Positions 6,963 to 21,610 of a DNA stretch of 21,610 nucleotides are shown here, piece after piece. A program made the translations under genes and the position numbers. The notes under the pieces are model-generated. The model saw only the letters and a program-made list of their open reading frames with translations. It made no database searches and was not told where the DNA came from. Origin of the DNA: a virus; IMG/VR virus record IMGVR_UViG_3300025138_000443, positions 1 to 21,610 of that record; one strand, 5' to 3'. How positions within the stretch are numbered: position 1 is the first letter of the stretch; every line of letters begins with the position of its first letter.

Positions 6963-7424
6963 ATGGCAGATAAAAAAATAACGGCGCTTACCGATTTAAG
7001 CACAAGCGTAGCAGGTGAAGACTTGTTGCATGTAATTGACGATCCTTCTGGAACTCCAGTAAACAAGAAATTGACTGTAGCTAATTTACTTAACTACATA
7101 CCAACATTCTTGGCTTTTGCTCAAGCAGAACAAGCTTTAACAGGTGCTGGTGCAGCAGATGTTACTTCTGCAGTTACGGCGTTTACTACTGATGGTGATA
7201 ACTCAGGTAACAACGCAGTTACTTTAGCAGCAGGAACATCAGGACAGATTAAAATTCTTTACACTAAAGTAGAGACTTCATCTGGTCAAACAACAGTAGT
7301 CACACCGGCAGCATTTGCTAACGGATCAACATTGACTTTTGATGCAGTTGGTGATGCAGCTATATTGTACTACAACGGCTCTACATGGGTTTGTTTAGCA
7401 CAACAAGGTGTCGCAATAGCGTAA
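6963..7424 (+). CDS. Small stand-alone adaptor-like virion protein, 153 aa
   Basis: 153 aa. Residues 1 to about 48 ([23 protein letters not shown] followed by [17 protein letters not shown]) match a motif I associate with the N-termini of phage tail-fibre and virion proteins: 'KIsaLt.lt....gDll.vvD......tkkitv.nLl'. The rest ([40 protein letters not shown]...[27 protein letters not shown]) looks like a small all-beta domain of the kind that often ends such proteins. It has its own 76-base leader with two hairpins and a strong Shine-Dalgarno, unlike its tightly packed neighbours. It sits between genes 6 and 7. Likely roles are an abundant virion decoration or a fibre-attachment protein. I cannot name a gene, and the role is inferred. 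Confidence 0.75.
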
Positions 7425-11954: not shown

Positions 11955-13430
11955 ATGGCAGCAATAATAACTGAAAAATTTCGTCTAAACAACGCGAAAC
12001 AGTTTATCGAAGATATAACACAGAGTTCATCTGTAGCATATTCATTTATCGGTAGAGGACATTCATGGACAGACGATTCAACTCCGCCAACTCCCGTAGA
12101 CAGTCCAAATGATGAGTTCGATGCTTATCGTAATATGGTAGCGTTGAAGAAGATTTCTACTTCAGATATTTCACATGCGATTGTTAGACGAGACTGGACT
12201 TCCGGAACAACTTATGACGAGTATCGTCACAACTATTCATCAGCAAACACAGCTAATAGTGGAGCAACTACTTTGTGGTCTTCATTATTCTATGTAGTAA
12301 CTGATGATTATAATGTATACAAGTGTTTAAATAATGATGGTAATACGGCTTCAACTGTAAAACCTGATCACACAACACTAACTACACCAACAGAGTCAGA
12401 TGGATATCAATGGAAATTTATGTTTTCTATATCAGCATCTGATGTAATTAAATTCGTTACAAATGATTTCATACCAGTAAAAACACTTGGTGCTAAACTA
12501 GCAGTAGCTGGTGGAGTAGACACAGGTTCACAAGACGGTAGATTAGGTGACGCAGCAACTGATGATGGTTCAGCACAATGGGATGTTGAAAACGGAGCAG
12601 TTGATGGAGCTCTTCAAAGAGTAGTAATCAAAGCAGCTGGATCTGGATATACAGCATCTACAACAACAGCAAGTATCGCTATTCGTGGTGATGGTTCAAA
12701 TGGTGTTGCGACAGTAGTTACTAATGGTTCAGGTGGTGTTACAACAGTAACAATTACCACAGCCGGTTCAGGATACACAACAGCATTTATTGCAAACGAA
12801 GATATCCCAGGATTTGATAACGCTAACCAAGCAGCAGACGGAACAAATGCTTCAGCTAATATTGAATTTATTATTCAACCTAAAGCTGGTCATGGTGCAG
12901 ATTCAATAGAAGAACTTGGTGGTAACTATATCATTCTTAATTCAAGACTTGAGTATTCAGAAGGTAGTGGTGACTTCCCAACAGATAACGATTTCAGACA
13001 GATTGGTGTTGTTGTTAATCCTACAGATAGTGGTGGTAATACTTTATGTTCTGCAGCGACAAGAACAGCATACAAAAAAATGACTTTTGTTTCTTCAGGA
13101 TTCTCAGCTCCTACAGTAGATACTATTATTCGTAATGCATCTACAGAAGTAGTTGGAACAGCAGTAGGTATCGTAGTATCAGTAGATACAACAAATAGAA
13201 TTATTTCTTACTTACCTTATCCGAATGAATCAAATAACTTTGTAGACTTTGCTAATGGTAATACTATATACTCAGCAACGAATACAAATCACGGTACATT
13301 AACTTCCTCAGCTTTAACAGCAGAAGAAGTACAAAGATATTCTGGTGACATCATCTATTTAGAAAATAGACAAGCTGTTTCTAGAGCATCAGATCAGATT
13401 GAAGATATAAAACTTATAGTAGAAATGTAA
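11955..13430 (+). CDS. 8: Baseplate wedge protein gp8
   Basis: 491 aa, against 334 aa for T4 gp8. The N-terminus follows gp8: AIITEKFRLNNAKQFIEDI, then YSFIGRGHSWTDDSTPPTPVDS matching the T4 'FGRSEPWS..PPYPTDS' region, then HAIVRRDWTSGTTYDEY matching 'AVIPRRDWG.TRY'. Residues 145-175 (DGYQWKFMFSISASDVIKFVTNDFIPV) and the C-terminus (YSGDIIYLENRQAVSRASDQIEDI) match the T4 'GYVWEYLFEI' and 'HSGEMIYMENRPPI.MAMDQTEEI' segments. gp8 forms dimers on the wedge that bind gp7 and gp10 in T4. The added length is a Gly/Thr-rich insertion with two AGSGYT repeats (about 226-275) and an 'A-x-G' beta module near 395-430. AAAGGG lies eight bases before the ATG, which supports the start. Confidence 0.92.
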   Translation: MAAIITEKFRLNNAKQFIEDITQSSSVAYSFIGRGHSWTDDSTPPTPVDSPNDEFDAYRNMVALKKISTSDISHAIVRRDWTSGTTYDEYRHNYSSANTANSGATTLWSSLFYVVTDDYNVYKCLNNDGNTASTVKPDHTTLTTPTESDGYQWKFMFSISASDVIKFVTNDFIPVKTLGAKLAVAGGVDTGSQDGRLGDAATDDGSAQWDVENGAVDGALQRVVIKAAGSGYTASTTTASIAIRGDGSNGVATVVTNGSGGVTTVTITTAGSGYTTAFIANEDIPGFDNANQAADGTNASANIEFIIQPKAGHGADSIEELGGNYIILNSRLEYSEGSGDFPTDNDFRQIGVVVNPTDSGGNTLCSAATRTAYKKMTFVSSGFSAPTVDTIIRNASTEVVGTAVGIVVSVDTTNRIISYLPYPNESNNFVDFANGNTIYSATNTNHGTLTSSALTAEEVQRYSGDIIYLENRQAVSRASDQIEDIKLIVEM

Positions 13431-13440
13431 GGGAACATAA

Positions 13441-16400
13441 ATGGCACAAAATACAGATTTAAATGTATCGCCTTATTATGATGATTATGATGAAACTAAG
13501 AATTTTCACAAAATTCTGTTTCGTCCATCTAATGCGATACAAGCAAGAGAACTAACTCAACTACAGAGTATATTACAAAACCAAGTTGAAAGATTTGGTA
13601 ATCATATATTTGATGAGGGAGCTCTTGTCATGGGTGGTACTGTAACAGTAAATACATTGTATGAAGCTGTTAAAGTTAATGCAACTAATCCAGGTTCAGG
13701 TACTGCAACTGTAGAAACTTATAGAACAGCATCTGTCGGAAAATTTTATCAAGGTCAAACTTCAGGTGTCGTAGCAAAAGTAATTAATTCAGTTTCAGCT
13801 ACTACTACTGGTGATCCACTTACTTTATATGTTATTTATGTTAAAGCTAATGCTGATTCATCTACTACAACATATTCTAAATTCTTAGACAACGAAGAAC
13901 TTCATGAAGTTACTGTAGACGCTGCAGGTGCTTATTCAAGTGCTTCGAATAATAATGAATTCAAAACTATTCTACCTAGTGCCGTAGCAGGACATGATTC
14001 TTCTACAGCTACCGGGTCTGCCGCAACAGTAAGAGGTGGTATATTTTATACAAGAGGTTTCTTTGTCAGATGTGATGAACAAACAATTTTATTAGACAAA
14101 TATACAAACTCACCTACTTACAGAATAGGATTACAAATTACAGAAAGTTTACAATCATCATCGGATGATTCAACATTATTAGATAATGCTTCAGGTACTT
14201 CTAACGAAAACGCACCTGGTGCAAATCGTTTAAAGATAGCTCTAACATTAATTAATAAAACAATTACCGGTACTCAAGACATTGATAATTTCATTGAGTT
14301 ATCAAGAGTAGAAGAAGGTACTGTAACTAAACAAACAGCTATTACAGCTTATAATACTTTAGAAAGAACTTTAGCTAGAAGAACTTCAGATGAGAGTGGT
14401 GACTATATTGTTAAACCATTCAACTTAGAACTAAGAGAACATTATAATGATACATTAAATAATGGTGTATACAAATCTTCTAATACATCTATACCAGGTG
14501 ATAAAACTAAATTAGTTGCAACAATATCTCCAGGTAAAGGATATGTAAAAGGATTTGAAGTTGACAAACAATCACAAAGTCTCATAACATTAAATAAAGC
14601 TAGAACTATTCAAGATGCAGGAGCGTTGGCTGTACCATTTGAGATTGGAAACTTTTATAACATAGATAGTGTTTTCGGTCAACCTGAATTTGGAACTGGT
14701 GTATCAGGGATTACACCTTTCGGTACTGTATCACTAAGAGACACCCACAAAGCTAATGTAGAAGGTGCGGACGGTACAGAGATTGGTCAAGCTAGAGTAA
14801 GATACTTTAATAATATAACAAAAGTAGTATCTGGTGGTAAACACACAGATGCGTCTGTATTTAGAATTCATTTATTTGATATTCGTATGTACACAAAACT
14901 TACAGTTGCTAATACAAGTCATGCGTACACAGCAGGTCAAAGAATTAAAGGTACTGATTCCGGTGCTAAAGCAACAATTGCTGTCAGTTCAGCTCATGCT
15001 GCGACTACAGTTTTTATAACTGATATAGAAGGTACATTTAATACTTCTGATACAATTAGGTTAGAACATGAAACTACTGGTGGAAAAGCCGTTTCAGCTA
15101 TCAGAGCATTTTCTTCTGATAGAGTTAGACAAGTTTATCAAACATCAAGAACAAGTGGTTCAGCAGTTTTTGCCGCGAACACAATTACAACAGATAATCA
15201 ATTTGTACCGACAGGTATAATAAAAACTGTAAGTAATGGTACAGCAGTTGTGGGTACAAACACAAAATTTACTCAAGAATTAAAAGAAGGTGATATATTA
15301 ATAGCATCAACAGGTGTATTGGAAGGTATAATAGCTTCAGTTACTTCTGATACAGCAGCAGTCTTAGCTGCTAATGGAGCTAATGGATCTACAGGTAAAA
15401 TGCTTAGACAAAGAGCTCACTTACAAGAACAAGAAAAAACAGTATCAGTAATGCCTACACCGAAGAACTTTGTTTCTTCTATTACACCCAATAATGTAGT
15501 AATAAGAAAACAAACAACACTTCAATTATCAGGAGCTGGTGGTACGATTTCAGGTGTGAGTGATGAGACTCTAGTTGCTGAAGATGATAATGACTACATG
15601 GTAGCTATCATGGAAGCAGAGGGTACAGAATCAAACCCAGAAGATAATGATGAAGGTTCCGTACTTGATATAGCTGGAGCAGGTGGTACACCAGCCAACT
15701 TTATGGTTCCTAATTTAAGTTCAGGTGGTGGTATTGTATTTACTTCTGATAATAGTACACCGTTAAACGCAGATGGTGATGATGCAGGGATATTAAAAGT
15801 TATCTATGCTGCTACTAAAGATGTTGCTAATAATAATTCAGCTAAAACTCTAAGAAGATCAAGAGGAATTAAAATTACAACAACAGCGTCAGCTGCATCA
15901 GGTTCTTCAGCTTCTGCAGAAGTTTATGGTACAAATATTAATGATGAAATAATAACATTAGGTGTACCAGATGTATACGCAGTTAGAGCTGTATTTGAAT
16001 CAAATGATGCAACAGATGCATTACCTCCTAAGTTAACAGTAGCTAGTGGATTTGGTGGTAATCCTGGGGATAGAATTACAGGTTCTGTTTCAGGAGCAGT
16101 AGGAAAAATTATTCAAGTCACAGGTACTTCTATATTCTTTTACTATATCGGGTCTATAGAATTTACAACGAGTGATACTATAACTAACGAAACTTCAACT
16201 AATACTTCTACTAACAGTAGAGTATGTAGTGCAATAACGATAGATTCTAAAGACATAACAAATAGTTATCTAGTTGACGATGGTCAGAGAGATGGATATT
16301 ATGGTCTTGGTTCTATTAAAAGAAAATCAGGTAAACCAATTCCAACCGGTAGAATTTTAGTTATCTTTGATTACTTTACAGCAGCTTCAGGAAACTTCTT

Positions 16401-17580
16401 TACAGTTGATTCATATTCTGATTTAGAATATGAAAATATACCTAATTATATACCAAACATTACAGATCCTAATGGATTAGAACCAGACGGACAAATAGAA
16501 TTATCAGATGCTGTTGATTTTAGATCATACGCACATTCATTGGTTGATGTATCTGCAGCTTTAGATCCGACATCAGCAACAGATATATCTAGTGTGACTG
16601 CTCAACCACTATTACAAGCTACTGAAGAATTTACAAGTTCGAGAGCAGTAACTTTTGATTTACCTAAGAGTGGTCAATCATTAACTACAACTGCAATGAA
16701 ACACTTTCTACCTAGAATTGATAAAATATCATTGAGTTCAGACGGAGACTTTATTGTTTCAGAAGGACAACCAGCAGACGAACCGGCAGCTCCAACAACT
16801 CCAAGTAATTCGATCTTATTACACACAACTTATTTACCAGCTTACACAGCAGATTTACAAAGAATTGCTGTTGTGTCTGAAGATCATAAACGATTTACAA
16901 TGAAAGACATTGGTAGAATACAAGGTCGTGTTAAGAATTTAGAAAGAGTAACATCTTTAAATGCATTAGAACAACAAACAAGTTTAACACAAATACAAGA
17001 TGCTGACGGATTAGATAGATTTAAATCAGGATTTATGACAGATAATTTTAGGGGTCATAAAACAGGAGATGTGAATCATATAGATTATAAAATATCAGTT
17101 GACAGAACAACCGGTACATTAAGACCTCAACACAATTCTAAATTTGTAGATTTATCATTGAATACAGGTGCTTCATCTGGCTATGTTAAAACTGGTGATA
17201 TGATTACATTACCATTTACTGAAGAACCCTATGTAACAATAGATAAAGCATCTTCAACAGAATTTGTTAATCCATATGATGTTGTATTATTTAATGGTAC
17301 AGTTGACTTAAGTCCTTCCAGAGACTTGTGGTTCGAAACAGAAAGGTTACCAGCAGTTAGAAGACTAGTTGAAGGAGATTACGACACAGTTTTATCTGGT
17401 GTACGAAATTCATTAGGTACAGTATGGAATAATTGGCAGTCTGATTGGTTAGGTGAACCTGTAACAACAGTTAGAGAACCTACAAATAGAACTGTAACTT
17501 CACCTACTCCAGGATCAACTCCTAGAGCAGCAGCTCCTGGATCAAACACAACAGCAACTAGACGAGTGGAACAGAGGTAG
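13441..17580 (+). CDS. DUF4815-type large virion protein, N-terminal part (1379 aa, ends at amber)
   Basis: 1379 aa. The N-terminus (DLNVSPYYDDYDETKNFHKILFRPS, then AIQARELTQLQSILQNQVERFGNHIF) is the hallmark of DUF4815 phage structural proteins. At about 1150-1240, FTMKDIGRIQGRVKNLERVTSL...DADGLDRFKSGFMTDNFRGHKTGDVNHIDYK is a second conserved block of that family. Between them are inserted beta modules near 98-160, 490-550, 588-648 (VVGTNTKFTQELKEGDILI) and 870-920. The final 45 residues after WNNWQSDWLGEPVTT are a Thr/Pro/Ala-rich linker, ending at a TAG (17578-17580). In relatives as I recall them, the polypeptide continues past this linker into the sequence encoded by the next gene, which here lies in the same frame. 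Its place after gene 8 suggests a peripheral baseplate or fibre-network role. AAGGGA at 13429-13434 serves as Shine-Dalgarno. Confidence 0.85.
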   Translation: MAQNTDLNVSPYYDDYDETKNFHKILFRPSNAIQARELTQLQSILQNQVERFGNHIFDEGALVMGGTVTVNTLYEAVKVNATNPGSGTATVETYRTASVGKFYQGQTSGVVAKVINSVSATTTGDPLTLYVIYVKANADSSTTTYSKFLDNEELHEVTVDAAGAYSSASNNNEFKTILPSAVAGHDSSTATGSAATVRGGIFYTRGFFVRCDEQTILLDKYTNSPTYRIGLQITESLQSSSDDSTLLDNASGTSNENAPGANRLKIALTLINKTITGTQDIDNFIELSRVEEGTVTKQTAITAYNTLERTLARRTSDESGDYIVKPFNLELREHYNDTLNNGVYKSSNTSIPGDKTKLVATISPGKGYVKGFEVDKQSQSLITLNKARTIQDAGALAVPFEIGNFYNIDSVFGQPEFGTGVSGITPFGTVSLRDTHKANVEGADGTEIGQARVRYFNNITKVVSGGKHTDASVFRIHLFDIRMYTKLTVANTSHAYTAGQRIKGTDSGAKATIAVSSAHAATTVFITDIEGTFNTSDTIRLEHETTGGKAVSAIRAFSSDRVRQVYQTSRTSGSAVFAANTITTDNQFVPTGIIKTVSNGTAVVGTNTKFTQELKEGDILIASTGVLEGIIASVTSDTAAVLAANGANGSTGKMLRQRAHLQEQEKTVSVMPTPKNFVSSITPNNVVIRKQTTLQLSGAGGTISGVSDETLVAEDDNDYMVAIMEAEGTESNPEDNDEGSVLDIAGAGGTPANFMVPNLSSGGGIVFTSDNSTPLNADGDDAGILKVIYAATKDVANNNSAKTLRRSRGIKITTTASAASGSSASAEVYGTNINDEIITLGVPDVYAVRAVFESNDATDALPPKLTVASGFGGNPGDRITGSVSGAVGKIIQVTGTSIFFYYIGSIEFTTSDTITNETSTNTSTNSRVCSAITIDSKDITNSYLVDDGQRDGYYGLGSIKRKSGKPIPTGRILVIFDYFTAASGNFFTVDSYSDLEYENIPNYIPNITDPNGLEPDGQIELSDAVDFRSYAHSLVDVSAALDPTSATDISSVTAQPLLQATEEFTSSRAVTFDLPKSGQSLTTTAMKHFLPRIDKISLSSDGDFIVSEGQPADEPAAPTTPSNSILLHTTYLPAYTADLQRIAVVSEDHKRFTMKDIGRIQGRVKNLERVTSLNALEQQTSLTQIQDADGLDRFKSGFMTDNFRGHKTGDVNHIDYKISVDRTTGTLRPQHNSKFVDLSLNTGASSGYVKTGDMITLPFTEEPYVTIDKASSTEFVNPYDVVLFNGTVDLSPSRDLWFETERLPAVRRLVEGDYDTVLSGVRNSLGTVWNNWQSDWLGEPVTTVREPTNRTVTSPTPGSTPRAAAPGSNTTATRRVEQR

Positions 17581-17586
17581 ACTATG
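17574..17586 (+). promoter_or_regulatory. Amber stop / restart junction between the two DUF4815 halves
   Basis: The sequence reads GAGG-TAG-ACT-ATG. The GAGG at 17574-17577 is a Shine-Dalgarno six bases before the ATG at 17584. The TAG (17578-17580) is in the same frame as that ATG, with only one sense codon between. The arrangement allows either termination followed by reinitiation, or amber readthrough giving a roughly 2209-residue product. It is the only TAG stop among the 13 complete gene ends in the window (11 TAA, 1 TGA). Confidence 0.6.
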
Positions 17587-20070
17587 AATGGATTTTTTGG
17601 CTTAGGTATTGATTTTAACTTAAATGTACTTAACACAGGACGACAAATTCGTTCTGGTGTGACTACATCTGTAGTAGAAGAATTTGCCGAAACGAGAGCG
17701 GATAGAATTGTATCAACAAACATAGTTCAGTCAATGAGAGCTAGAGATATTACTGTATCTGGTACTAATTTTAAACCTAACACACCATACTTTGTTTTCT
17801 TTGACGGAATAGATGTCAACGCATACATGACTCCAAGTTCTTCAGTATACGGAATGGGTGGAGCAACAACTAAAGGAACAGCTTTAAGATCAGATAATTT
17901 AGGTGTGATAGTAGCTACTTTTTCAATACCGAACACAGACGAATTAAACTTTTCAACAGGAACTAAAACATTAAAAGTAACAAGTAGTTCTACAGGTGCA
18001 TCAACAACTTCTGAAGGACAAGCACAGTACGCTGCTAATGGTGAAATCAGAGTAATACAAGAAGAAATTACTTCTACTAGAAATGGTAGAGTAGTTGTTG
18101 ATGAAGTAGCAGAAACAAGACAACAAGTTAGGTGGACTGACCCTCTAGCTCAATCATTCTTAGTTGATAGAAAAGGTGGTATATTTGTACCGTCAATAGA
18201 AGTATACTTCGGTAAAAAAGATACATCATTACCGGTATCTATACAAATTAGACACATGGAAAATGGGTTCCCAACTCAAAAAATTGTTCCGTTTGGAGAA
18301 AAATCTTTATCTCCAGCAGATGTTAATATTTCAGCAGACGCTTCTGTTGCAACTAAGTTTTCATTCCCTTCACCTGTATATTTAGAATCAGGTAGAGAAT
18401 ATTGTGCAGTCGTTATGACAAACTCTAATGTTTATACTTGTTGGGTTTCAGAAATGGGACAAAAAGATATAGCAACGAATGACTTTATCGATCAACAGCC
18501 ATACGCTGGTTCTTTATTTAAATCTCAAAATAACTCTACCTGGACAACTGATCAATTAAAAGATTTAAAAATGACTATCAATAGATGTAAATTTACTACA
18601 GGTACATCAGCTAATGTTGTGTTTGAAAATGGTAATTACGGGACAGAAAATTTACAGGTCAATCCTATCGAAACTATTAGTGGTACTAAATGTTTCAGAG
18701 TTCATCACTATTCACACGGGAACTATGATGAAAAGAAATCAAATATTACTATCTCTGGAGTAGTAGGAGACAGATCAGGTTCAGCAGTAAGATTTACAGA
18801 TGATACAGTAGAGTCAGGAGATGGTTCAGATTCAACAGACAATGCAGCAACTCTAGCACAAACATCAACAACAGGTAGTGGAACAGGTTTAATAGTAACA
18901 CTTACTACATTAGGTGATGATTCAGTAACAGCAGTTATTACAAATCCTGGTCAAGGTTACGCTGTAGGTGATGATGTTGTATTCACAAAAAATTCAGATA
19001 CATATACTTTTGATATAGCAGAAGTTAGTGAAACTCTAGGTGGTATACCAATTGGATATATCAATAGAACTCATACTGCAGGAACATCTGTAGCTGAAAC
19101 AACAAACGGAACTGCAAAGATATTAGCAGACATGGATTCTTATCTAATTACAATCCCTAATTCAGTTTGGGCAGCAAGAGTTTCTGGTACGACAAATACT
19201 GGATTAAATATTCAAACAGCTTTTGAAAGTACAGTTGGTGGCGGTTCAAATGTTACTGCAACAGGTAATGTTTATTTTGATACATTACACACAACGATTC
19301 CTAGTATTGAATTACCTAATACAACTATTACAACAAGTTTCTTGGGAACATCTGCTACTCAACCAGTAGTTTTATCTTCTCCAACTTCTTCGTTTACTAA
19401 AGATAGTATTTCAAATACAATTACATTAAACGATAATAATACTCTATTAAATTCAAAAATTATTGCATCAAGTATTAATGAGACTAATGAGATGGGTGGT
19501 AATAAAAGTTTTGAATTAACAGCATCACTATCTTCAACTCAAGATAATGTTTCACCTGTTTTAGATGTAGATTCATTAGGTATAATCGGTATTCAAAATA
19601 GAATTAATAATGTTGACGCTATTACAGATGTTTCAGTAGCAGCTGCAGCAAACTTTGCGGGGTCAGGTGAAATATTAAATGCCTTCGTACCTTCAACTGA
19701 AGCTCGAGGAGATTCAAACGCAGCTGTATATATTTCTAAGAAAGTTACACTAGCAAATCCTGCAAATGCTCTTCATATTATGTTTGATGGTTATAGAGCT
19801 ACAGGATCAACCGGTGATGAATCAAAAATAGAAATTTACTATAAAGTATTAGGACCAGACACAAACATTCAATTTGTAGATGTTGGTTGGTCAGAAGCAA
19901 CGATTAAAAACAATGTACCAGCTGATGCATCAGACTTTAAAGAATATTTATATGAGATTGAAGCACTAGAAGACTTTAATACTTTTGCTATTAAAATAGT
20001 TTTAAAGACAGACAATAGTGCTAATATTCCTTTACTTGAAAACTTTAGAACTATAGCGTTGAGTACCTAA
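17584..20070 (+). CDS. Large virion protein, C-terminal part of a DUF4815-type protein (828 aa)
   Basis: 828 aa. Residues 35-75 (ETRADRIVSTNIVQSMRARDITVSGTNFKPNTPYFVFFDGIDV) match the family pattern 'lgdRvvd.s..p.mRsrdI...a.glKPnT..y.FFDg.dV', which in relatives follows the linker after the DUF4815 part. The middle (DPLAQSFLVDRKGGIFVPSIEVYFGKKD, VYLESGREYCAVVMTNSN, QPYAGSLFKSQNNSTWT) and the C-terminus (YISKKVTLANPANALHIMFDGYR...FKEYLYEIEALEDFNTFAIKIVLKTDNS) also belong to that family. An inserted Ser/Thr/Gly segment at about 406-482 (TGSGTGL...VITNPGQGYAVGDDVVF) is a beta module of the G-x-G-Y type seen in gp8 and the gp7-like protein. It probably assembles with the upstream product in the outer baseplate or proximal fibre network. 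The start is set by GAGG at 17574-17577. Confidence 0.85.
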   Translation: MNGFFGLGIDFNLNVLNTGRQIRSGVTTSVVEEFAETRADRIVSTNIVQSMRARDITVSGTNFKPNTPYFVFFDGIDVNAYMTPSSSVYGMGGATTKGTALRSDNLGVIVATFSIPNTDELNFSTGTKTLKVTSSSTGASTTSEGQAQYAANGEIRVIQEEITSTRNGRVVVDEVAETRQQVRWTDPLAQSFLVDRKGGIFVPSIEVYFGKKDTSLPVSIQIRHMENGFPTQKIVPFGEKSLSPADVNISADASVATKFSFPSPVYLESGREYCAVVMTNSNVYTCWVSEMGQKDIATNDFIDQQPYAGSLFKSQNNSTWTTDQLKDLKMTINRCKFTTGTSANVVFENGNYGTENLQVNPIETISGTKCFRVHHYSHGNYDEKKSNITISGVVGDRSGSAVRFTDDTVESGDGSDSTDNAATLAQTSTTGSGTGLIVTLTTLGDDSVTAVITNPGQGYAVGDDVVFTKNSDTYTFDIAEVSETLGGIPIGYINRTHTAGTSVAETTNGTAKILADMDSYLITIPNSVWAARVSGTTNTGLNIQTAFESTVGGGSNVTATGNVYFDTLHTTIPSIELPNTTITTSFLGTSATQPVVLSSPTSSFTKDSISNTITLNDNNTLLNSKIIASSINETNEMGGNKSFELTASLSSTQDNVSPVLDVDSLGIIGIQNRINNVDAITDVSVAAAANFAGSGEILNAFVPSTEARGDSNAAVYISKKVTLANPANALHIMFDGYRATGSTGDESKIEIYYKVLGPDTNIQFVDVGWSEATIKNNVPADASDFKEYLYEIEALEDFNTFAIKIVLKTDNSANIPLLENFRTIALST

Positions 20071-20276
20071 TGAAACATATTAAGGTAGAAGGTAGTCAAA
20101 ATTTGTATAGAGATGAAGAATCATTTGCGATTATTAACATAGACAATACTGCATTCAGTAGAGCTAAGATGATTAAAGAAAGAATAAAGACTCAAGATAG
20201 TGAGATAAATACACTTAAAGAAGAAGTAAATGAGATAAAAGATATTTTATTTAAGATTAACGAGAAATTAACATGA
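20070..20276 (+). CDS. Small coiled-coil protein preceding the tail fibre, 68 aa
   Basis: 68 aa. The N-terminus (HIKVEGSQNLYRDEESFAIINIDNTAF) resembles short proteins in marine T4-like phages of the form 'y..v.gh..L.RD..t.AIiN.d...y', which I recall just upstream of fibre genes. Residues 30-68 (IKERIKTQDSEINTLKEEVNEIKDILFKINEKL) show a clear heptad pattern for a coiled coil. The function is unknown; a trimeric assembly factor or small virion component for the adjacent fibre is possible. It is translationally coupled at both ends: its ATG overlaps the previous stop (TAATG) and its TGA overlaps the next start (ATGA). This supports its being a real gene despite its size. Confidence 0.82.
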   Translation: MKHIKVEGSQNLYRDEESFAIINIDNTAFSRAKMIKERIKTQDSEINTLKEEVNEIKDILFKINEKLT

Positions 20277-21610
20277 CAAGAACAGTAGACACAAGTTCAA
20301 CTTTTGAGAACTGGAGACAGAGTTACAACGATCTAGCTAATGATGTTGGATCTTTAGGTAATCTAACAACAGGTGATAAGAGTAGTTTAGTTAACTCTAT
20401 TAATTATTTAATGGATCAATACTTCTACTTTCAAGATTTTGATTTTGATGGTTCTGATGGTGCAACAAGTAATACAGTTTTCTCAGGTGCTGATAATGCT
20501 GGTATTACTCTAGCATACTCTGCAGGTAAAGTATTAGTATTTAAAAATGGAGCATTACTTAGAAGTGGTAGTGATTATACAGCATCGAATGGTACATCTG
20601 TAGTACTAGGAAGTTCAGCTAGTAACACAGATGTTATTCGTATCACAGCGTTCACTGGTTCGTATGAAAATGTAGGAGCAGCTGCAGCATCGAGTATAGG
20701 ACAATTTGTACTAAATGGAGGTGTCTTACATAATAAAAATACTGGTGGTATTGTAATTAATGGTGATTCATCAATTACTACATCATTAGATATTGCAAAT
20801 ACAATTCAATTAGCAGGTGATACTCATGCAGTCGGAGATATATCTATTAGATCAATTAGTAGTACTAGAAACGAATTAAGATTATTTGATAATGATAACT
20901 CAAACTATGTAGCTCTTAAATCACCAGCAACGGTAAGTTCTAATTTAACATTTACTATGCCAACCGCTGATGGTTCTTCTGGTCAATTTTTAAAGACAGA
21001 CGGTAGTGGTAACTTCTCGTTCGGAACAGTATCAGCTACAGCTCCAGATATTACAATAGCAGCTAATAACTCAGCTAATGAAACAGTATTTCCTGTATTC
21101 GTAGACGGAGCAACAGGTACACAAGGTTTAGAATCAGATACAGGATTTACTTATAATCCTAGTTCAGGTACACTAACTTCAACAATATTCGCTGGTGCGT
21201 TAACAGGTAACGCTTCAACAGCTACGACACTAGCAACAAATAGAAACTTTTCAATAACAGGTGATGTTACAGCTTCAGCAGTAGCGTTCAACGGTTCAGG
21301 TGTCGTAACTTTAAATGCTACACTAGATGATAATACAGTCGATTCAGCTGAACTTGTTGACGGAAGTATTGATACATCACATATTGCAAATGGTCAGATT
21401 ACAGTTGCCAAGATGGCAGCAAATAGTGTTGACTCAGACCAATATGTAGACGGAAGTATTGACACTGCTCATATAGCGGCTAACTCAGTTACAACTGATA
21501 AGGTAGGTGACAATACTGTTACTACAGCTCTTATAGCAGACTCACAAGTTACAGTAGCGAAGATGGCTGCTAACTCAGTTGACTCAGACCAATATGTAGA
21601 CGGAAGTATT
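20273..21610 (+). CDS. Tail fibre protein, N-terminal 446 codons, runs off the window
   Basis: The frame opens at ATGA (20273) and is uninterrupted for exactly 446 codons to the window end. The N-terminus (TRTVDTSSTFENWRQSYNDLANDVGSL.NLTTGDKSSLVNSINYL) is the virion-attachment type common in marine T4-like fibres. Residues 70-130 (FSGADNAGITLAYSAGKVLVFKNGALLRSGSDYT and onward) form a beta 'adhesin-like' module. Around 205-250, NELRLFDNDNSNYVALKSPATVSSNLTFTMP and GSSGQFLKTDGSGNFSFG is a conserved fibre shaft motif. From about 356 on, degenerate repeats appear (VDSAELVDGSIDTSHIA, VDSDQYVDGSIDTAHIA). The protein probably trimerises and carries receptor specificity at its distal end, which lies beyond the window. 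The start overlaps the preceding TGA, so translation is probably coupled. Confidence 0.9.
   Translation, partial: MTRTVDTSSTFENWRQSYNDLANDVGSLGNLTTGDKSSLVNSINYLMDQYFYFQDFDFDGSDGATSNTVFSGADNAGITLAYSAGKVLVFKNGALLRSGSDYTASNGTSVVLGSSASNTDVIRITAFTGSYENVGAAAASSIGQFVLNGGVLHNKNTGGIVINGDSSITTSLDIANTIQLAGDTHAVGDISIRSISSTRNELRLFDNDNSNYVALKSPATVSSNLTFTMPTADGSSGQFLKTDGSGNFSFGTVSATAPDITIAANNSANETVFPVFVDGATGTQGLESDTGFTYNPSSGTLTSTIFAGALTGNASTATTLATNRNFSITGDVTASAVAFNGSGVVTLNATLDDNTVDSAELVDGSIDTSHIANGQITVAKMAANSVDSDQYVDGSIDTAHIAANSVTTDKVGDNTVTTALIADSQVTVAKMAANSVDSDQYVDGSI
21338..21610 (+). repeat. Tandem degenerate repeats in the tail-fibre gene
   Basis: The protein unit V-D-S-x-x-x-V-D-G-S-I-D-T-x-H-I-A starts at about residues 356, 386 and 436. 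A V-A-K-M-A-A-N-S-V linker occurs before the last two. At the DNA level, 33 bases are identical between 21428-21460 and 21578-21610, exactly 150 bases apart, and the copy reaches the window end. The array therefore probably continues. Such repeats can lengthen or shorten the shaft by recombination. Confidence 0.8.

Follow-up and report, generated by a model that had tools for sequence, protein, structure and literature searches.

A two-gene form of the baseplate protein VrlC in a clade of T4-like marine phages

The window considered here, that is, the whole 21,610-nucleotide stretch of the IMG/VR record IMGVR_UViG_3300025138_000443, carries two adjacent genes, A and B, that together are the VrlC/DUF4815 baseplate protein in two-gene form, identified as such from their sequence, gene order and predicted structure. 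It is very probable that the pair represents a fissioned VrlC of T4-like marine phages, in which the split was inherited by a whole clade of uncultured phages and the amber codon that ends A is incidental. The sequences show that the split is clade-wide, nested among single-chain relatives and independent of reading frame, with each half keeping its own start, a Shine-Dalgarno (SD) sequence and purifying selection; the in-frame TAG is an ordinary codon with no special role.

The gene pair and its family

The features of the region are as follows.

11955..13430, + strand: homologue of baseplate wedge gp8, upstream neighbour of A (PF09215, phrog_438)
13441..17580, + strand: gene A, 1379 aa, the DUF4815-bearing N-terminal half of VrlC (PF16075; phrog_358 1-1187)
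17470..17577, + strand: C-terminal tail of A, rich in Pro, Thr and Arg and variable in the alignment; upstream half of the former linker
17573..17577, + strand: AGAGG, Shine-Dalgarno-like, for gene B, within the final codons of A
17578..17580, + strand: TAG stop of gene A, not conserved among six relatives
17584..20070, + strand: gene B, 828 aa, the C-terminal half of VrlC (phrog_358 from 1314 on; structural match to phi812 ORF65)
17584..17655, + strand: first 24 residues of B, modelled at low confidence (pLDDT <50); downstream half of the former linker
18094..18135, + strand: second interdomain linker, B residues 171-184 (pLDDT <50 at 174-184)
20070..20276, + strand: small virion gene, downstream neighbour with a TAATG overlap with B (phrog_473)

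As a sequence-only reading had noted, A and B share one reading frame and are parted by the TAG and a single codon, ACT (17581-17583), ahead of the ATG of B. The TAG does fall within a low-complexity linker, namely the variable tail of A, and a usable restart site does precede the ATG, the AGAGG being spaced six nt from it and pairing with the anti-SD at -7.1 kcal/mol, a strength equalled at 1.7% of internal ATGs. Elsewhere in the window, a 153-aa gene amid the baseplate genes (6963-7424) gave no PHROG match, and a tail-fibre-like gene (20273-21610), with repeats such as VAKMAANSVDSDQYVDGSIDT near the end, runs off the contig.

Family membership is supported by a PF16075 (DUF4815) score of 196 bits for A, against a cut-off of 30, by the alignment of A and B to consecutive parts of the phrog_358 profile (2056 positions; A to 1-1187, B from 1314 onward), and by a position directly after the gp8 homologue, with the phrog_473 gene following B, the same order as around VrlC in isolated marine phages. 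A baseplate role is in keeping with passages of a pelagimyophage analysis that describe VrlC in the place of T4 gp7 (PMC7029224), and with phi812 ORF65, a protein solved within the phi812 baseplate (PDB 9euf and others; the location is given in the 9euf entry title), which both A and B match. In sequence, A matches ORF65 residues 394-612 and B residues 680-948, and the structural match of B reaches the C-terminal end: the model of B residues 180-828 superposed on ORF65 786-1152 with Z 19.0 and an rmsd of 5.0 over 356 residues. ORF65 differs from the window in being a single chain of 1152 aa. The model of B had a mean pLDDT of 80.4, with values below 50 at residues 1-24 and 174-184, and its residues 185-336 are structurally similar to the lectin-like domain of Cwp84 (Z 11). 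The same resemblance is reported, in passages of PMC11406892, for the jelly-roll of the tail fiber/VrlC of the Bacillus phages Deep-Blue and Vp4, where a 63-64 aa gene is listed next to VrlC and where VrlC, unlike in the window, is a single chain.

The proposal that both conserved blocks normally lie in one polypeptide was borne out. One annotated CDS spans both parts in 12 isolates from several phage groups (Melnitz-3, Mosig, HTVC008M, S-ShM2, Ps15, VPALA, maane, phage K, OLIVR5, S-WAM1, K471 and Grass), and the frame runs uninterrupted through the region in 129 of the 153 database loci that are complete across it. The VrlC of cyano- and pelagimyophages (phrog_358; Melnitz, Mosig, HTVC008M and S-ShM2) is like the window in sequence across both halves and in its gene order after gp8, but is one polypeptide of ~2000-2400 aa, whereas the window has two genes, an arrangement common to its clade. 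Passages on VrlC in published papers describe no split form. Similarity to B runs on for ~120 bases beyond the annotated VrlC of S-ShM2 (L046, GU071096.1), a sign that the frame may be broken close to the 3' end. A scan of cellular genomes gave one match only, distant and partial.

The junction in close relatives

With B alone, database scans found relatives sharing 46% identity or less, all of them single-chain around the first linker, and gave the impression that the window was a unique split; that impression was discarded when a scan with A revealed a close split clade. Its six other members are 62-80% identical to the window: L047 (80% in A and 80% in B), L048 (79% in A and 73% in B), and L049, L051, L058 and L135 (62-66%). 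All six are split at the identical linker, with the following stops of A, stop-to-ATG distances and frames of B.

Window: stop TAG, stop-to-ATG +3, B in frame
L047: stop TAA, stop-to-ATG -1, B out of frame
L048: stop TAA, stop-to-ATG -1, B out of frame
L049: stop TAG, stop-to-ATG +23, B out of frame
L051: stop TAA, stop-to-ATG +13, B out of frame
L135: stop TAA, stop-to-ATG +1, B out of frame
L058: stop TAA, stop-to-ATG +6, B in frame

The relatives thus end A with TAA in five cases and with TAG in one, and two of the seven clade members have the halves in frame and five out of frame, so that the in-frame arrangement is no commoner than chance, being a one-in-three event for adjacent genes. 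In L047 and L048, a TAATG overlap stands where the window has TAGACTATG, and the junction reads AGATAATGAACGG in them versus AGGTAGACTATGAATGG in the window. The window therefore has four extra bases, GACT (gained there or lost in the relatives), a difference that created the TAG and brought B into frame. The sequence-only reading had offered a recent fission by point mutation: a fission it is, but a recent date for it is not supported, as six relatives at 62-80% identity share it, and what accompanies the in-frame TAG is a 4-nt indel relative to the nearest two rather than a changed sense codon.

The halves have the marks of separate genes. B has its own ATG in all seven members, and the SD is strong in six of them; energies at the seven B starts were -3.9 to -7.7 kcal/mol, compared with -1.4 on average across 907 internal ATGs, the weak case being L058, where 13% of internal ATGs are equally strong. 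In the window, L047 and L048 the SD sits in the final codons of A. Values of dN/dS were ~0.15-0.4 for both A and B, rough figures at silent distances of 0.7-1.2 from the window, and they point to purifying selection on each. At the sequence level, then, every close relative has two genes with separate termini, the sequence part of what the sequence-only reading had named as refuting read-through.

Programmed read-through of the TAG, yielding a minor fusion of ~2209 aa beside the short form, had been suggested, and we regard it as very improbable. The shared frame in the window and some slight extra RNA folding just 3' of the stop (z -2.4, in one of three stretches tried) speak for it, but frame continuity fails in five of the six relatives, so stop read-through or suppression would be unable to join the halves in L047, L048, L049, L051 and L135. 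The folding is likewise not conserved in the relatives tried (+0.6 to +0.8 in L047, L048 and L049, and -1.3 in L058), and B has a strong SD belonging to itself.

Still less credible is a sequencing or assembly error that placed a stop in an intact single gene. The window is a single contig without reads, and frameshifts occur in some other IMG/VR copies (L158 and L007), but the split recurs in six other contigs with differing junction sequences, and the MNG..F start of B is conserved in the nearest relatives. The GACT may itself be a small indel error in this lone 21.6-kb contig; removing it would restore TAATG and leave two genes still.

Late-infection amber suppression, or recoding of TAG, as a means of joining the halves is extremely improbable. 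TAG is indeed rare in the window: it is, as had been claimed, the only TAG stop, among ORFs of >=120 codons (10 TAA and 1 TAG; TGA closes one short gene). A TAG terminator is nevertheless not unusual, since it ends 4 of 41 such ORFs in the six close relatives. An amber-recoded phage would have many in-frame TAG codons, but the window has one among 7064 codons, beside 235 ordinary Gln codons, which rules out a recoded genome, and the relatives have TAA or an out-of-frame B. Neither the window nor the fragments of its relatives yielded a tRNA, which says little because these genomes are incomplete and the rest of each lies outside the sequence covered. A recent point-mutation loss that left A and B as a decaying pseudogene pair, for which the in-frame TAG could be cited, is just as implausible given a split common to a clade at 62-80% identity, with purifying selection on both halves and no other disruptions.

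Fission history and the linkers

The preferred reading, a fission inherited by the clade, is supported by the trees (a 122-row FastTree and a 59-row IQ-TREE tree, with linker columns excluded), whose rows were collected with the proteins of the window itself as queries, so that the share of split forms in them is not a frequency in nature. In both trees, the seven split members formed one group with 100% support, nested among single-chain relatives. VrlC is a single chain in the sister clades L002/L136/L141 and L052/L053/L055, which places the fission of the gene in an ancestor and makes it older than the in-frame state of the window. That the change was fission and not fusion follows from the single-chain outgroups, as change counts alone give no direction.

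VrlC has also been split independently in other uncultured phages, with tree origins separate from that of the window clade but with the same protein, fission in a linker and a new start near the old stop. The first linker has two origins of splitting: the window clade and one further locus. The second linker (B residues ~171-184) is unbroken in the window, and the matching profile positions are the split site in four further lineages, with the error-ridden L158 set aside.

First linker, independent split: L081 (its neighbours L090 and L107 are single-chain)
Second linker: L018-L022 with L027 and L029-L031
Second linker: L077/L082/L089/L092
Second linker: L103/L117/L120
Second linker: L159

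On these trees the fission of VrlC has at least six origins, a number that is not firm given the long deep branches and the unsure placement of L103/L117. Three loci were not counted as split. L158 has several frameshifts and is near-identical to the intact L150, L007 has one frame change within a domain, and L203 was omitted as doubtful, being split in a folded region (profile position 1648, corresponding to 616-621 in the L002 model). L158 and L007 are public viral contigs whose VrlC frame breaks resemble sequencing errors.

An AlphaFold model of the single-chain L002 across both sites (689 residues, mean pLDDT 68.8) had pLDDT <50 at residues 255-336 and 480-504; the split sites correspond to residues 277-320 (first) and 480-500 (second), and the counterpart of the tail of A falls below 50 as well. 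Both linkers are thus of low confidence in the model and probably disordered. The coincidence of splits and linkers is not a strict test, as about a quarter of the L002 model lies in segments with pLDDT <50, but it is what would be expected of functional proteins split between domains.

Several of the upstream chains split at the second site terminate in an extra cassette, e.g., a Hint-like or DUF4214 domain. In L019, L020, L021 and L159, an Asp/Gly-rich linker in the upstream chain is followed by a terminal domain of Hint (intein-like) type (Vint, 29.5 bits in L019; PT-HINT, 32.5 bits in L159; Hom_end_hint in L021 at E 3.9e-7, under its cut-off). L018, L027, L030 and L103 have other post-linker cassettes, KVICTAMN..YGFGSFRNAIW or KIICSEM.., with no clear Pfam match. 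The upstream chain of the split L077 ends in DUF4214 (25.5 bits), and by eye a resembling stretch lies in frame at the second linker of the single-chain L091 and L099. Within the C-terminal half, L062-L064 and many cyanophage-like loci have in-frame inserts of ~90-350 aa at profile positions 1424-1432.

Assembly and significance of the two-chain form

The inherited fission can be pictured as beginning in the clade ancestor, where the linker between the DUF4815 part and the C-terminal jelly-roll part would have acquired both a stop and a start codon, since when the halves have been separate adjacent genes. In the window, a ribosome would terminate at the TAG and initiate at the ATG 3 nt downstream via the SD in the last codons of A, with the translation of the two genes probably coupled. 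The two chains would then fold separately and probably meet in the baseplate at the place of the single chain.

That the linker splits in VrlC are adaptive and not neutral is, in our estimation, rather unlikely. If they were, the C-terminal jelly-roll part might be produced at a different level or swapped by recombination, or a cassette (a Hint domain, for instance) could be added where the upstream part now ends.

As there is no evidence for read-through, the pair has no importance as a case of it, and annotators would do well to avoid labelling such pairs as pseudogenes or read-through genes. The amber codon is ordinary, and it is the recurrent fission of VrlC that is mildly interesting: the largest baseplate protein of abundant marine phages tolerates a two-chain form, which has arisen several times and at two interdomain linkers, and its split sites mark natural domain borders that would be useful for structural work.
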